A DNA stretch of 64,000 bases from Roseivirga seohaensis (lineage in GTDB: Bacteria > Bacteroidota > Bacteroidia > Cytophagales > Cyclobacteriaceae). This document shows positions 53,472 to 59,245 of the stretch, piece after piece. Numbering within the stretch: the stretch's first letter is position 1; each line of letters starts with the position of its first letter. The notes beneath the pieces were generated by a model. The model saw nothing but the letters and a program-made list of their open reading frames with translations. It was not told the origin of the DNA and made no database searches. The position numbers were made by a program, and so were the translations under genes. The DNA is taken from NCBI RefSeq assembly GCF_001592945.1, contig NZ_LRPB01000048.1:1-64000 (forward strand), in the 5' to 3' direction.

Positions 53472-54569
53472 CTAAAGCACACCTTTGGTACTCGGCAGAA
53501 TGTCCATTTCATCTGCATTTCGTTTTACCGCCATTTTAATGGCCTTAGCAAAAGCTTTAAAAATAGACTCGATTTTGTGATGCTCATTATCGCCTTCTAC
53601 CTTAATATTTAGGTTGCATTTGGCGGCATCGGAAAAGGATTTAAAGAAATGCATAAACATTTCTGTTGGCATATCGCCCACCATTTCACGCTTGAATTCA
53701 GCTTCCCAAACCAACCAAGGCCTTCCACTAAAGTCGATGGCCACTTGAGCCAAAGCTTCGTCCATGGGAAGTAGAAAACCATAGCGGTTCAAACCCTTTT
53801 TATCCCCTATAGCCAATGCATAAGCTTCGCCCAAAGCTAAAGCGGTATCTTCAATCGTGTGGTGTTCATCAATATGTAAATCACCTTTCACCTTTACGGT
53901 TAAGTCTGCTCCAGAGTGTTTCCCCAATTGATCGAGCATGTGATCGAAAAAGCCCAAACCAGTTTCATTATTGCATTGGCCTGTTCCGTCTAAATTTAAC
54001 TGAATGAGAATATCCGTCTCTTTGGTTACACGATGTACTTCTGCTTTTCTCTGAGGCATTTGCAAGAACCTGAAAATCTCATCCCAACTATTCGTACTTA
54101 ATGCTGCTTTAGGGTTTTGTTCTTCAGTAATAAAAATCGCCTTTGCCCCTAGGTTTTCTGCCAATTGAATGTCGGTTTCCCTATCGCCCAAAACAAAAGA
54201 ATTTGCCAAATCATAATCACCACTAGTGAATTGAGTAAGCAAAGCCGTTCCAGGTTTACGCGTTGGTGCGTTCTCGTGGGCAAAAGTACGGTCGATGATA
54301 ATTTCATCAAAAACAACCCCTTCACCCTCAAGAGTTTTGAGCATTTTATTCTGCGCTGGCCAAAAAGTTTCTTCTGGGAAAGAATCCGTCCCTAATCCAT
54401 CTTGATTGGTCACCATCACAAGTAGATAGTCTAGCTGCTCGGCAATTTTCCTTAGGTTAGAAATGGCCCCAGGCAAAAACTCAAGTTTTTCTAAAGAGTC
54501 TACTTGAAAGTCGGTTTTGGGTTCAACGATGATCGTACCGTCACGATCTATAAAGAGTATTTTTTTCAT
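53472..54569 (-). CDS. hisB: Bifunctional histidinol-phosphatase / imidazoleglycerol-phosphate dehydratase
   Basis: The start at 54569 ([17 protein letters not shown]) is chosen because the open frame continues 46 codons upstream only by reading through a palindromic repeat. The protein (about 365 residues) has a HAD phosphatase half with the DxD motif FIDRDGT and a dehydratase half with two metal motifs, [17 protein letters not shown] and [17 protein letters not shown]. It catalyses steps 7 and 9 of histidine synthesis. It is the last gene of the his cluster here; hisH, hisA, hisF and hisIE are not present in this window. Confidence 0.95.
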
Positions 54570-54590
54570 CATTTGGTTAAATAGGTTGTT

Positions 54591-54718: not shown

Positions 54719-55765
54719 TTAATTTAAGTTTTTGAGCGCTTCAATTAGCAATTCATTTTCTTTTTCAGTGCCCACAGTAATTCTAATTCCGCCTTCGCAA
54801 AGCGCTACTTTAGAACGGTCGCGCAGAATGATTTTCTGTTCGATTAGCTTTTTATATACTTCTGAAACATTCTCTAATTTCACTAAAAAGAAGTTTGAAT
54901 CCGTAGGGAAAATCGTTTTAATCATAGGGATTTGCTTTAAAGCTTCTCCTAAAGATTCTCGGTTTTTCAAAATTTGATCAACCATCCTATCCTTCTTCAT
55001 AAGGTTTTCTAATGCTTTTAAAACAGTTTTTTGAACTAAGCCACTTAGGTTATAAGGTGCTTTAATTTTGTTCAAAATGGCCAGTATTTCTTCCGAAGCT
55101 AAAGCCATTCCTAGCCTTAGGGCCGCTAAACCCCAAGCTTTACTGAAAGTTTGAAGCACCAACAAGTTGGGGAATTCTTCAAGCCTCAGCGCAAAACTCT
55201 GTCTACTTGTAAAATCTACATAAGCCTCGTCTACCAAAACAATACCTTTGAAAAACCGCAATACTTCTTCGATCTTATCCAAGGAAACATCATTGCCTGT
55301 TGGGTTATTGGGCGAACAGATAAAGATGATTTTCGTGTTTTCGTCAACGGCCGATTTAATTGCCTCCACATCCAAATCATAATCGGCTGTTAGCAGTACT
55401 TCGCGTGCTTCTACATTATTGATGTCGGCACTTACCTTATACATACCGTAAGTAGGCGGATTGATGATCACATTATCCTTTCCCGGCTCGCAGAAAGCTC
55501 GGAATAATAAATCTATAGGTTCATCGCTACCGTTTCCTAAAAAGATGTTTTCTGACCTCACCCCTTTGATTTGAGCAATTCTAGTTTTCAACTCCTTTTG
55601 GTATGGATCAGGATAGCGATTCCAATCCTCTTCCGTAATTGAACCCAGTGGGTTTTCGTTGGCATCCAAAAAGACGCCTTCATTGCCTTTATAATCATCT
55701 CTGGCAGACGAATAAGGCACCAACTTCTGCAAGTGCGTTCTTAAAAGTGCGTTCGGATCAAACAT
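54719..55765 (-). CDS. hisC: Histidinol-phosphate aminotransferase
   Basis: The 348-residue protein is a class I/II PLP aminotransferase of the HisC type: [50 protein letters not shown] and the PLP lysine in [20 protein letters not shown]. It converts imidazole acetol phosphate and glutamate to histidinol phosphate. Its start overlaps the hisD stop by eight bases and it is separated from hisB by a palindromic repeat of about 125 bp. Confidence 0.96.
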
Positions 55766-57047
55766 TGTTCAATGATTTAAGTCTCAAAGTAACCGCATTC
55801 TTATGTGCTTCAAGCAATTCAGCTTCGGCCATAATTTCTACCACAGGCCCTAAATTCTTAAGTCCTTCTTCAGTAATTTCCTGATAGGTAATTTTCTTCA
55901 CATAACTATCTAAAGAAACACCGCTGTACATTTTTGCATAGCCATTGGTAGGCAAAGTATGATTTGTACCCGAAGCATAATCACCTGCCGATTCTGGCGT
56001 ATAATTCCCAATAAATACAGAACCTGCATTAATAATTTGATCCGCTACTTCCCATGGTTTCTCAACACATAGAATCAAGTGCTCCGCTCCGTATTCGTTT
56101 AATAAATCAATGGCCTGATCTCTATTCTCTAACACAATTGACACACTGTTTTTCAAGGCCTTGGAAGCTAATTCTGCGCGTGGTAAAGCTAATAATTGCG
56201 TTTGCACTTCTTGTTGAACCGCATTAACAATTTCGTCAGAAGAAGCCACCAACACCACTTGAGAGTCGGCACCGTGTTCTGCTTGCGAGAGCAAATCCGC
56301 AGCTACGAAAGCTGGAATGGCTGTTTCATCTGCATACACTGCAACTTCCGATGGGCCAGCAGGCATATCAATAGCCAATCCATATTTGGTGGAAAGCTGT
56401 TTGGCAGCAGTTACATACTGGTTTCCTGGCCCAAAAATTTTATTCACTTTCGGAATAGTGGCGGTTCCAAATGTTAAAGCTGCAATGGCTTGGGCTCCGC
56501 CTACTTTGTAAACCTTAGTGACGCCCACCAGTTGTGCCGTAAACAAAATTGCTGGGTTTACATTTCCGCTTTTATCTGGAGGCGTACATAACACAATTTC
56601 TTTACAGCCTGCAATTTTAGCCGGAACGGCCAACATCAAAACGGTAGAAAATAGTGGCGCAGTACCTCCAGGGATGTACAAACCAACCTTTTCAATGGCT
56701 ACCGATTTGCGATAGCAATTCACACCGGGCATGGTTTCAACCTTCAATACTTCCCCTTTTTGGGCAGCGTGAAAAGTCTCAATGTTCTGTTTTGCCATGC
56801 GAATAGCAGCTTTCAATTCTTCTGGCACCAAACCTATGGCGGCATCTAGTTCAGCCGAAGACACCTCGAAATTGGTAATTTCCACTCCATCAAACTTCTT
56901 GGTAAAGTCGATCAAAGCCTGATCTCCTTCTGTTTTCACGGTTTCCATTACAGGCTTTACTATGGCCTCAATGGTTTCCAATTCCATAGTAGGCCGCTTT
57001 AATAAAGCTTCCCACTCTTCTCTTTTGGGGTTAATAGAAAGAATCAT
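55758..57047 (-). CDS. hisD: Histidinol dehydrogenase
   Basis: The 429-residue protein oxidises L-histidinol to L-histidine in two NAD-dependent steps with zinc. It has the conserved GLYIPGGTAPLFSTVLMLA, FGPGNQYVTAAKQL, DMPAGPSEVAVYADE, LLSQAEHGADSQVVLV and TPESAGDYASGTNHTLPT motifs. Length is normal. It overlaps hisG by four bases at its start and hisC by eight bases at its end, so the three are translationally coupled. Confidence 0.97.
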   Translation of the reverse strand: MILSINPKREEWEALLKRPTMELETIEAIVKPVMETVKTEGDQALIDFTKKFDGVEITNFEVSSAELDAAIGLVPEELKAAIRMAKQNIETFHAAQKGEVLKVETMPGVNCYRKSVAIEKVGLYIPGGTAPLFSTVLMLAVPAKIAGCKEIVLCTPPDKSGNVNPAILFTAQLVGVTKVYKVGGAQAIAALTFGTATIPKVNKIFGPGNQYVTAAKQLSTKYGLAIDMPAGPSEVAVYADETAIPAFVAADLLSQAEHGADSQVVLVASSDEIVNAVQQEVQTQLLALPRAELASKALKNSVSIVLENRDQAIDLLNEYGAEHLILCVEKPWEVADQIINAGSVFIGNYTPESAGDYASGTNHTLPTNGYAKMYSGVSLDSYVKKITYQEITEEGLKNLGPVVEIMAEAELLEAHKNAVTLRLKSLNNV

Positions 57048-57904
57048 AGAATCATTTTTTCAATTGGCACCACTAAAATCCCTTGCGCTCCTGCATTACG
57101 GAGTTCCTCAATAATCTCCCAAAAATCATCCTCCTGTATTACAGAGTGAACAGAACTCCAACCCTCAGTCGCCAAAGGCAAAACAGTTGGGCTTTTCATT
57201 CCAGGAAGAATATTGATAATGCTCTCCAAAGAATTATTAGGCGCATTTAACAATATGTACTTATTGTTTTTTGCCGTCTGAACTGAATCAATTCTAAAAA
57301 TAAGTCGATCGAGGATTTCCTTTTTCTCCGCTGAAAGATTCTTGTTGGCCAGCATTACTGCTTCCGACTTAAAAATTACTTCTACCTCCTTAAGGCCATT
57401 GCTCATTAAGGTAGAGCCAGAACTAACGATGTCACAAATTCCATAGGCCAAACCAATGCTCGGGGCAATTTCTACAGAACCACTAATTTCGTGAATGTCG
57501 GCATTGATGTTATTCGCTTTGAGGTAATCGCCTAAAATTTTCGGGTACGAAGTGGCCAAGCTCTTGCCTTCAAAATCTTGAATTCCATTGTAAGTTTCTG
57601 CTTTATCTATAGCCAAAGAAAGGCGGCATTTTGAAAAGCCGAGCTTCTTCACCCAATCCACTTGTTTATCCTTTTCTTCAGCTTCATTGGCGCCTACAAT
57701 TCCAATATCTGCAATTCCATCTTGAACGTAACCCGGAATATCGTCATCCCTTAAAAAGAGAAACTCCATAGGAAAATTTGAAGCTTCGGCCTTAAGCTTA
57801 CCCATGCCGTTATTTACTTTAATACCACATTCTTTAATTAATGCGAGGGAATCATCGCTTAATCTGCCACTTTTCTGTACTGCTATGCGCAAAGTATTTT
57901 TCAT
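57044..57904 (-). CDS. hisG: ATP phosphoribosyltransferase, long form
   Basis: The 286-residue protein catalyses the first step of histidine synthesis, joining ATP and PRPP. It is the long type: catalytic domain about 1-215 (LRIAVQKSGRLSDDSLALIK, GYVQDGIADIGIVGANEAEE, DIVSSGSTLMSNGLKEVEVI) and a C-terminal ACT-like regulatory domain (about 216-286), which allows feedback inhibition by histidine. It therefore should not need HisZ. It is the first enzyme gene of the operon, 184 nt after a His-rich leader peptide ORF. Confidence 0.96.
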   Translation of the reverse strand: MKNTLRIAVQKSGRLSDDSLALIKECGIKVNNGMGKLKAEASNFPMEFLFLRDDDIPGYVQDGIADIGIVGANEAEEKDKQVDWVKKLGFSKCRLSLAIDKAETYNGIQDFEGKSLATSYPKILGDYLKANNINADIHEISGSVEIAPSIGLAYGICDIVSSGSTLMSNGLKEVEVIFKSEAVMLANKNLSAEKKEILDRLIFRIDSVQTAKNNKYILLNAPNNSLESIINILPGMKSPTVLPLATEGWSSVHSVIQEDDFWEIIEELRNAGAQGILVVPIEKMIL

Positions 57905-58088
57905 CTGTATGATTTTGTAGAGTTCAGGTAAATCAAATTTTAAAGCATACCTAACCCTAAATGTTTAGAAATTGATTTGATTTTTTTCAGAAAAGCGAGC
58001 ATAAGCGAACTGCTAAACTGAAATGGGTAATAAATTGAATCGAATGTGCCGACAGAACCTGCCGGGTAGGGTGTTATATATATCTCTC
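57905..58088 (-). promoter_or_regulatory. his operon leader RNA, candidate attenuator
   Basis: This 184-nt stretch lies between the leader-peptide stop and hisG. On the minus strand CCGGCAG-GTT-CTGTCGG (58065-58049) forms a seven-pair hairpin with one G-U, and TTTCAG/CTGAAA arms (58023 and 57985) enclose about 27 nt. Just upstream, ATCTCTC-GTAA-GAGAGAT spans the leader stop (58099-58082), and TGCAC-CTCAT-GTGCA lies within the leader (58125-58111). These could be alternate structures of an attenuator, but none has a good U-tract, so the stop mechanism is unproven. Confidence 0.55.
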
Positions 58089-58157
58089 TTACGAGAGATG
58101 ATGGAAATGATGCACATGAGGTGCAGTAGTAGAAGCGATATGTGTGTTTTTCAACAT
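58089..58157 (-). CDS. hisL: His-rich leader peptide of the his operon
   Basis: A 22-codon ORF (ATG at 58157, TAA ending at 58089) encodes six histidines, five of them in PHVHHFHHLS at the end of the peptide; the first is residue 6. It lies on the same strand as hisGDCB, only seven bases after the promoter -7 box and 184 nt before hisG. This matches the logic of enterobacterial his leader peptides: scarce charged tRNA-His makes the ribosome pause and lets transcription go on. The reading frame, His content, promoter and position agree. Sequence is unlike the known E. coli leader outside the His run. Confidence 0.88.
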   Translation of the reverse strand: MLKNTHIASTTAPHVHHFHHLS

Positions 58158-58163
58158 CGAGAG

Positions 58164-58194
58164 CAAAGGTAACTAAGCAAATGGTTTAGACAAA
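58164..58194 (-). promoter_or_regulatory. Bacteroidota-type promoter of the his operon
   Basis: On the minus strand TTTG (58194-58191), a 19-nt spacer and TACCTTTG (58171-58164) match the Bacteroidota consensus TTTG-N19-21-TAnnTTTG exactly. The ATG of the leader peptide lies seven bases downstream of the -7 box, so transcription would start at or a few bases before it and leave almost no 5' untranslated region. Confidence 0.8.
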
Positions 58195-58363
58195 AGTTAT
58201 TTTAAAAAAGGTAGATATTCGCGTCTTCAATACATTCTAACCTTATCATAAGATTTTCTCCTACCTTAATTTTATTTAATCAGCTTAATGAATTAACAAA
58301 AGTTAGATTGTATTAAATTGCTCTCCTCAAAATATTTCAAAACATTATACAACCATTCTTAAC
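58195..58363. other. Promoter-side gap before the thioredoxin-like gene
   Basis: This AT-rich region must contain the promoter of the plus-strand gene at 58364. I see no clear -33/-7 pair and no other gene. Confidence 0.4.
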
Positions 58364-59245
58364 ATGAAGTTATTTTTTTCAGTCCTGCTCACTTTTTTAA
58401 TCTTTAACGCTACTGCTCAGGAAATTACCACTTATAAAAACGCTGAAGGGCAAAGTCATTTGGCTGGAAAATTCCCCGTGGAATACTTACAGCAGGATAG
58501 TGTTTATCAGCAGTGGTTTAATAAAAATTATGCTGAATTCACGGTAGAAAAAGGCGATAACAAATGGAAGAAAGCCTTGAAAAACACTCAGGTGGATATC
58601 TACTTAGGCACATGGTGTGGTGACAGTCAAAAATGGGTACCGAGTTTTCTGAAATTATGGGATGAATTGGGTTTAGATCGAAATCAACTCTCTTTTACTG
58701 CGCTTTATGATGGAGAAGAGAAATACAAACAAGGACCAAAAGGAGAGGAAAAAGGTAAGAAAATTCACAGAGTACCAACTTTCATTTTCAAGAATAATGG
58801 AGAAGAATATGCTAGAATTGTAGAAACTCCGCGCAATGATTTAAAAACCGACTTGGCCCAAATTGCCTTAGGCTATCCTTCAGAACCCAATTACAGAGCA
58901 GCTACCTATTTGCTTGATTTATTCGAGCAAAATTCCATGACAGACATATATAAGGATGCGAATACTCATCTTAATGAGGCCTACCACTTGGTTGGCAAAA
59001 GTAGCGAATTACACACTTTAGGCAGAGTTTTAATGAGTTCTGACAGGGTTGAACAAGGGTTGTTGGTATTACAGTTCAACACAATCATTAATCCTTATAC
59101 TCCGAGTGTGCTTAATCGTTATGGAAATGCTCTGGCTGAAAATGGTCAAAAAGAAATGGCCATCGCTACTTTTGAAAAGGTTATTCAAATAAACCCAGAA
59201 GACGAAAATGCTTTAGCTCAACTCAAGAAATTAAAAGGAAACTAA
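58364..59245 (+). CDS. Secreted thioredoxin-like TPR protein with a single Cys
   Basis: The 293-residue protein has a signal peptide (MKLFFSVLLTFLIFNATA). A thioredoxin-fold domain (about 70-175) is marked by IYLGTWCGDSQKWVPSFLKL and HRVPTFIFKNNGEEYARIVE, the latter with the cis-proline. The usual CxxC is reduced to CGDS, so it has one Cys and cannot form the classic disulfide. The C-terminal part (about 190-293) has TPR-like helices (LNRYGNALAENGQKEMAIAT). It could be a thiol-transferase or a binding protein rather than an oxidoreductase. Confidence 0.78.
   Translation: MKLFFSVLLTFLIFNATAQEITTYKNAEGQSHLAGKFPVEYLQQDSVYQQWFNKNYAEFTVEKGDNKWKKALKNTQVDIYLGTWCGDSQKWVPSFLKLWDELGLDRNQLSFTALYDGEEKYKQGPKGEEKGKKIHRVPTFIFKNNGEEYARIVETPRNDLKTDLAQIALGYPSEPNYRAATYLLDLFEQNSMTDIYKDANTHLNEAYHLVGKSSELHTLGRVLMSSDRVEQGLLVLQFNTIINPYTPSVLNRYGNALAENGQKEMAIATFEKVIQINPEDENALAQLKKLKGN

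Follow-up and report, generated by a model that had tools for sequence, protein, structure and literature searches.

The hisGDCB operon of Roseivirga seohaensis is preceded by a short ORF with a run of histidine codons, and this leader is very probably a histidine-responsive leader-peptide attenuator that acts by some means other than an intrinsic terminator. Judged from the sequence, the new point is how such a leader ends: in place of a U-tract terminator, two conserved hairpins with compensatory base changes are found, P1 at the leader stop codon and P2 farther downstream. The window, i.e., the whole stretch of DNA analysed, comprises 64,000 nucleotides (positions 1 to 64,000 of contig NZ_LRPB01000048.1), and its relevant features are collected in Table 1.

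Table 1. Coordinates of the his leader region and of the his genes in the window
Feature	Position	Strand	Remark
−33 box TTTG	58191..58194	−	exact match, 19 nt ahead of the −7 box
−7 box TACCTTTG (TAnnTTTG)	58164..58171	−	exact; the leader ATG follows after 6 nt
Leader ORF (MLKNTHIASTTAPHVHHFHHLS-stop)	58089..58157	−	22 codons plus TAA
Hairpin P1 (ATCTCTC-GTAA-GAGAGAT)	58082..58099	−	7 bp; in the MFE fold
Unpaired linker P1–P2	58066..58081	−	with ACACCC; C-rich counterparts in relatives
Hairpin P2 (CCGGCAG-GTT-CTGTCGG)	58049..58065	−	in the MFE fold
Spacer P2 to hisG	57905..58048	−	without U-tract terminator
hisG	57044..57904	−	TIGR00070, TIGR03455 above cut-off
hisD	55758..57047	−	TIGR00069 above cut-off
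hisC	54719..55765	−	TIGR01141 above cut-off
hisB (bifunctional)	53472..54572	−	PRK05446 model above cut-off

The leader ORF and its conservation in Bacteroidota

Six codons of the leader ORF specify histidine, five of them inside the seven-codon stretch HVHHFHH, and 184 nt separate the leader stop from the ATG of hisG (57904). An earlier reading of the same DNA from its letters (below, the sequence-only reading) had described a 22-codon ORF with six His codons at this distance from hisG, and both its coordinates and its codons check out. The ATG at 58157 is the likely leader start, since the alternative in-frame TTG (58166) falls within the −7 box. The four his genes were identified by NCBIfam models, the curated cut-offs being exceeded in each case; the hisB ORF is listed from 54710, and its family match starts at residue 47. 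When the window was searched against Rfam, a tRNA was the sole match at the gathering score, and under relaxed settings the leader had two matches, both far below their own gathering scores.

Conservation was assessed on 195 hisG loci, composed of 30 loci, 25 new ones, 80 more (the best 80 of 579 matches), and 60 hand-chosen regions drawn from a list with matches in 155 of 192 genomes; after removal of ten loci (six duplicates and four short ones), 185 were counted. A short ORF with at least four His in eight codons lies on the sense strand of 93 of the 185 hisG upstream regions from Bacteroidota, as compared with 0/185 on the antisense strand and 0.43% of 3700 dinucleotide shuffles, conservation p-values being too small because the rows are related. 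With at least five His, the counts are 61/185 sense and 0/185 antisense. The sequence-only reading had held such a run unlikely to arise by accident, and the difference between the strands bears this out. The other 92 sampled upstream regions fall below four His in eight codons, some of them being missed leaders. The genome of the window is no special case: across the Bacteroidota sampled, His leaders are a widespread feature ahead of hisG.

Within the genus (the genome itself and 18 others), the leader ends in HHL(S/G/V)-stop in 19 of 19 cases, so that the conserved His-rich ORF in close relatives, on which the sequence-only reading had made its case depend, does exist. At least four His in eight codons are present in 18 of these 19, the exception (L017) having three and no ATG start. 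Of 39 relatives searched with a covariance model of the leader built from 49 sequences, 21 gave a single match each, always just upstream of hisG; in a phylum sample searched with strict filters, matches were obtained in 5 of 296 genomes, all in the family of the window. The closest named relative, Roseivirga pacifica (L056), has a HisG protein 87% identical to that of the window (among the best 80 of 579 matches), and the 200 nt ahead of its hisG are those of L005 (G018), a member of the window's own genus.

The distance from the leader stop to hisG is longer in the subclade of the window (184 nt; 132 nt in L004) than in other members of the genus (85–102 nt). Further hairpins are predicted in this subclade within the region corresponding to 57905–58048.

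Two architectures, the promoter and the hairpins

The sampled His leaders fall mainly into two architectures. Type 1 is marked by closely packed His codons, as a rule HHHH(H), with a U-tract hairpin behind them; it is found in Chitinophaga, Sediminibacterium, and others, as well as in L028 from the order of the window and in L030, L176, and L190 from its family, and a classical antiterminator is recognizable by eye in L030. Type 2, to which the window belongs, comprises leaders ending in HHxHH(L/S)S without a U-tract terminator and is represented by Roseivirga, Algoriphagus, Echinicola, Marivirga, and genomes of family f13 whose leaders resemble that of Pontibacter L128.

No U-tract terminator was found between leader and hisG in any of 63 type-2 leaders, and the opening 250 nt of hisG likewise contained none at all 58 testable type-2 loci. 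A simple terminator scan of 57850–58370 in the window detected one site, on the plus strand, and none on the strand of the his operon. The type-2 set was selected on the peptide ending and not on the absence of a terminator; the type-1 set was hand-picked from leaders showing one, so the presence of a terminator in 27 of 27 type-1 leaders is circular. L173, in which a terminator is present, was excluded from the latter set owing to the 388 nt between its ORF and hisG. When run on 49 loci, model R1 recovered six leaders missed by the peptide pattern (L021, L023, L026, L034, L067, and L128) and found the set members L079 and L188, while the looser members L022, L060, L068, L074, L094, and L122 were not found. 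One branch (support 99/97) of a HisG tree with 125 rows separates all 25 type-1 rows (together with one other row) from all 58 type-2 rows; L028 and L030 sit on long branches, which makes their placement unsure, and the tree does not include L176 and L190. The sequence-only reading had taken the ORF for an attenuator leader: a real, conserved His-codon leader it is, but it is incomplete as a classical attenuator, given the missing U-tract terminator throughout type 2.

Some leaders belong to neither set. His-rich leaders without a terminator occur, for example, in L027, L090, L102, L118, L154, and L164, and short ORFs rich in both His and Arg, likewise of neither type and without a U-tract terminator, precede hisG in L027, L121, L127 (Runella), L090 (Cesiribacter), L154, L157, and L161. 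With regard to codon usage at 62 type-2 loci, histidine is encoded by CAT in 285 of 334 codons of the leaders; over the initial 600 nt of hisG, the share is 46 of 83 (Fisher p 3e-8), and four-fold sites are AT-richer in the leader ORFs than in hisG.

Taken by itself, the promoter string carries no significance, with two copies in the window versus 2.2 expected; as chance would supply the string this often in such a window, the weight of the promoter comes from its placement and conservation. An exact TAnnTTTG positioned 4–11 nt ahead of an in-frame ATG is seen in 58 of 63 type-2 leaders, in 15 of 27 type-1 leaders, and before 10 of 1744 antisense ATGs. The exact TTTG-N19-TAnnTTTG arrangement that the sequence-only reading had placed directly before the ORF is present in the window, and the spacing from its TAnnTTTG part to the ATG is what recurs in other leaders. 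A scan for sigma-70-type promoters at the leader region gave no match. The conserved spacing of the −7 box implies a very short 5′ UTR, so that the leader mRNA would be near-leaderless. At Cyclobacteriaceae loci such as L032, L037, and L058, a conserved TAnnTTG-like box (GTATATTGC, GTAACTTGC) lies a few nt ahead of the hisG ATG itself; in Algoriphagus and Echinicola, this box might be a putative second, leaderless promoter bypassing the leader.

P1 starts within the last His codon and encloses the leader stop codon. Over 49 of the 63 type-2 leaders, 92.4% of its cells are paired, and two pairs show double changes (27 cells), which largely amount to one split, the genus versus the rest; the pairing score of P1 exceeds every shuffle and slide. 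P2 was counted in 17 of the 19 genus members (15 distinct sequences), L013 and L019 being excluded because P2 aligns differently there; 98.9% of its cells are paired, with double changes at four of six pairs. The linker between the hairpins carries the motif CATATCGCCC (with at most one change), located 14–16 nt from the leader stop, in 17 of 63 type-2 leaders. The fold of the window's leader is more stable than those of its shuffles (z −2.74). A search for conserved stems in four clade alignments, which could have yielded a mutually exclusive antiterminator, returned P1, P2, and weak or invariant stems only.

Loci with the CATATCGCCC linker include L020, L031, L032, L036, L037, L059, L069, L087, L169, L183, L184, and L186. 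In nine Roseivirga leaders, a CATATCGC-like string is found inside the leader ORF instead of CATATCGCCC in the linker.

The trp genes of the same genus provide an internal control. Outside the window (L201, G000:C45 near 72787), trpE of the same genome is preceded by a near-leaderless Trp leader, MRNTNLHSAWWWHLTELS, which does have a U-tract terminator. Among 24 trpE loci, 19 are full-length, and 17 of these (16 genus members and G028) have a WWW run; the exact box lies 2–13 nt from the ATG in 13 of the 17 WWW leaders, and a U-tract terminator is present in all 17, as detected by the same code that found none in the type-2 his leaders. Since the genus possesses ordinary terminators in its trp leaders, the absence of a terminator is specific to the his leader. 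At ilvD, one short ORF behind an exact box was found in 20 loci, and it has no branched-chain run. Bacteroid-trp (RF01692) had no match in the 19 relatives searched.

Proposed mechanism and the output step

Histidine shortage is very probably sensed by ribosome stalling on the His codons, as suggested by the Trp twin and by established attenuation biology. RNA polymerase would start just before or at the ATG, at about 58160–58157, and the ribosome would initiate at the nearly 5′-terminal AUG of the leader. If charged tRNA-His is scarce, the ribosome would stall on HVHHFHH, with the leader end and P1's 5′ arm covered, and hisGDCB would be expressed. If histidine is plentiful, the ribosome would reach the stop codon inside P1 and depart, P1 and P2 would form, and the RNA downstream of the leader, C-rich and G-poor, would become bare. 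The likeliest output, Rho-dependent termination, might then occur before or early in hisG, much as in the tna operon, though with stalling on the His codons as the signal.

This last step is a tentative first guess, to be given somewhat less than an even chance. In its favor, the 45 nt before hisG have a C/G ratio of 2.49, as compared with 1.09 ahead of 29 other ORFs (p 2e-6, the rows being related), and rho is present in the genome, scoring above its family cut-off. Counting against Rho, the leader ORF shows no enrichment in C at its four-fold sites (C/G 0.186/0.136 versus 0.289/0.160 in hisG), and the excess of C ahead of hisG is weak both in the subclade of the window (0.163/0.115) and in the Pontibacter/Hymenobacter-like group (0.191/0.142).

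It is rather unlikely, though next in rank, that P2 itself serves as a pause or termination site without a U-tract, which would make the system a classical transcription attenuator with an unusual terminator. P2 is indeed strongly conserved, covarying, and positioned like a terminator, and P1 may resemble a pause hairpin; however, the trp leaders of the same genus carry ordinary U-tract terminators, and no standout alternative stem excluding P1 or P2 emerges from the four clade alignments.

A little less likely still is translational attenuation, in which the freed leader RNA (Phe-His codons, UUCCAUC) would pair with the hisG start (GAUGGAA) and block initiation unless a stalled ribosome prevents the pairing. 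Few complementary pairs are conserved across 15 genus members, and TCCATC/GATGGA is one of them. Complementarity between leader and hisG start occurs in part of the group, the duplexes being stronger than for shuffled leaders (−7.19 versus −5.9), and pairing probability averages 0.111 in type 2 (0.39 in the window) versus 0.003 in type 1. Yet own and swapped leader–start pairs are equal in energy (−7.19 both), blocking of the His region makes the start no more accessible (0.538 to 0.542), and CAU complements AUG anyway; moreover, hisG of the window starts with ATGAAAAAT, which allows just a short bulged pairing, and hisG of L169, L184, and L186 starts with ATGCT. The pairing shows no covariation, because the complementarity within the genus never varies. 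As a general mechanism, pairing of His codons with the hisG start was rejected on account of the lacking covariation and the equality of swapped pairs.

That the ORF is non-regulatory, encoding a small protein with its own function (e.g., metal binding) or being a chance ORF, is highly improbable: although conservation extends over the HHxHH(L/S)S end, where the residue separating the His pairs is mostly hydrophobic too, the N-terminal halves differ between genera, the P1 arm accounts for the two terminal residues, the 21 model matches in relatives all precede hisG, a Trp-run twin stands ahead of trpE, and a chance ORF is excluded by the contrast between sense and antisense upstream regions.

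Returning to the reading with a Rho-like output, type 2 could tentatively be regarded as an attenuator class of its own, a proposal that falls a little short of being an even bet. It would combine a leaderless sensor ORF, a stop codon in a conserved hairpin, a conserved C-rich linker, and a second hairpin, with the His-stalled ribosome governing factor-dependent termination (by Rho or another protein), and it would replace the terminator-based attenuator of related Bacteroidota. More broadly, leader-peptide control of histidine synthesis is indicated as widespread in Bacteroidota and appears to be read off near-leaderless messages. With a textbook attenuator for trp and a his leader that has no terminator, the genus offers a ready comparison for the coupling of stalling to gene expression without an intrinsic terminator, and if Rho is the output, the leader would be a small natural reporter useful for work on Bacteroidota Rho.

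Relation to known systems

In the classical his attenuator of Proteobacteria (hisL), a short ORF with a His run precedes hisG and is followed by hairpins. The leader of the window shares this arrangement; it differs in having no U-tract terminator, no antiterminator that was found in the conserved-stem search, a near-leaderless start, and a hairpin at the stop codon. With type-1 leaders of Bacteroidota it has in common the His run, often near TAnnTTTG, whereas type 1 possesses a U-tract terminator and HHHH rather than HHxHH(L/S)S. The tna operon is under Rho-dependent leader control and senses free Trp for catabolism; a ribosome stalled on a leader ORF and a possible Rho output (putative in our case) are the shared elements, the sensing of free Trp being the difference.

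Bacteroidetes/Chlorobi were reportedly mentioned among the attenuator finds of Vitreschak and co-workers in 2004, and for this reason no priority is claimed for His leaders in the phylum. In the open-licence literature, subscription papers being outside the scope, no title on a Bacteroidota his leader was found. The suggestion of the sequence-only reading that the leader is an undescribed unit holds for part of it: clues to leader-peptide attenuation upstream of amino-acid operons have already been reported in Flavobacterium psychrophilum, where leaderless mRNAs make up 5.5% (PMC9723704), and Rfam contains Bacteroid-trp (RF01692), a trp motif for Bacteroidetes (PMC2864571). Leader-like sORFs are mentioned for B. 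thetaiotaomicron (PMC7366714). As stated in a 2010 survey, before its own Bacillus His leader no leader-peptide system was known outside Proteobacteria and Actinobacteria, erm aside (PMC2965389), and the word "leader" is absent from a 2021 paper on Bacteroidota his genes (PMC8305728). Bacteroidota Rho is under active study (PMC13269538).

Bacteroid-trp (PMC2864571) resembles the his leader in being a cis-regulatory RNA of a Bacteroidetes amino-acid operon, though it concerns trp. Terminator-less conserved Cys leaders of Actinobacteria have been ascribed to Rho, tentatively and weakly (PMC1262725), which speaks for Rho here as well. Closer in layout are the leaderless polycysteine short ORFs of mycobacteria (Canestrari et al. 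2020, as cited in PMC9031893 and PMC13236596), which likewise are leaderless ORFs with a run of the regulating codon attenuating downstream genes; they differ in using Cys, in belonging to Actinobacteria, and in reportedly regulating downstream translation, for which the corresponding test was negative in general for the his leader. Finally, E. coli toiL-topAI (PMC12121999) shares with the his leader a stalled leader ribosome and a possible Rho output, the difference being that toiL senses antibiotics via start masking.
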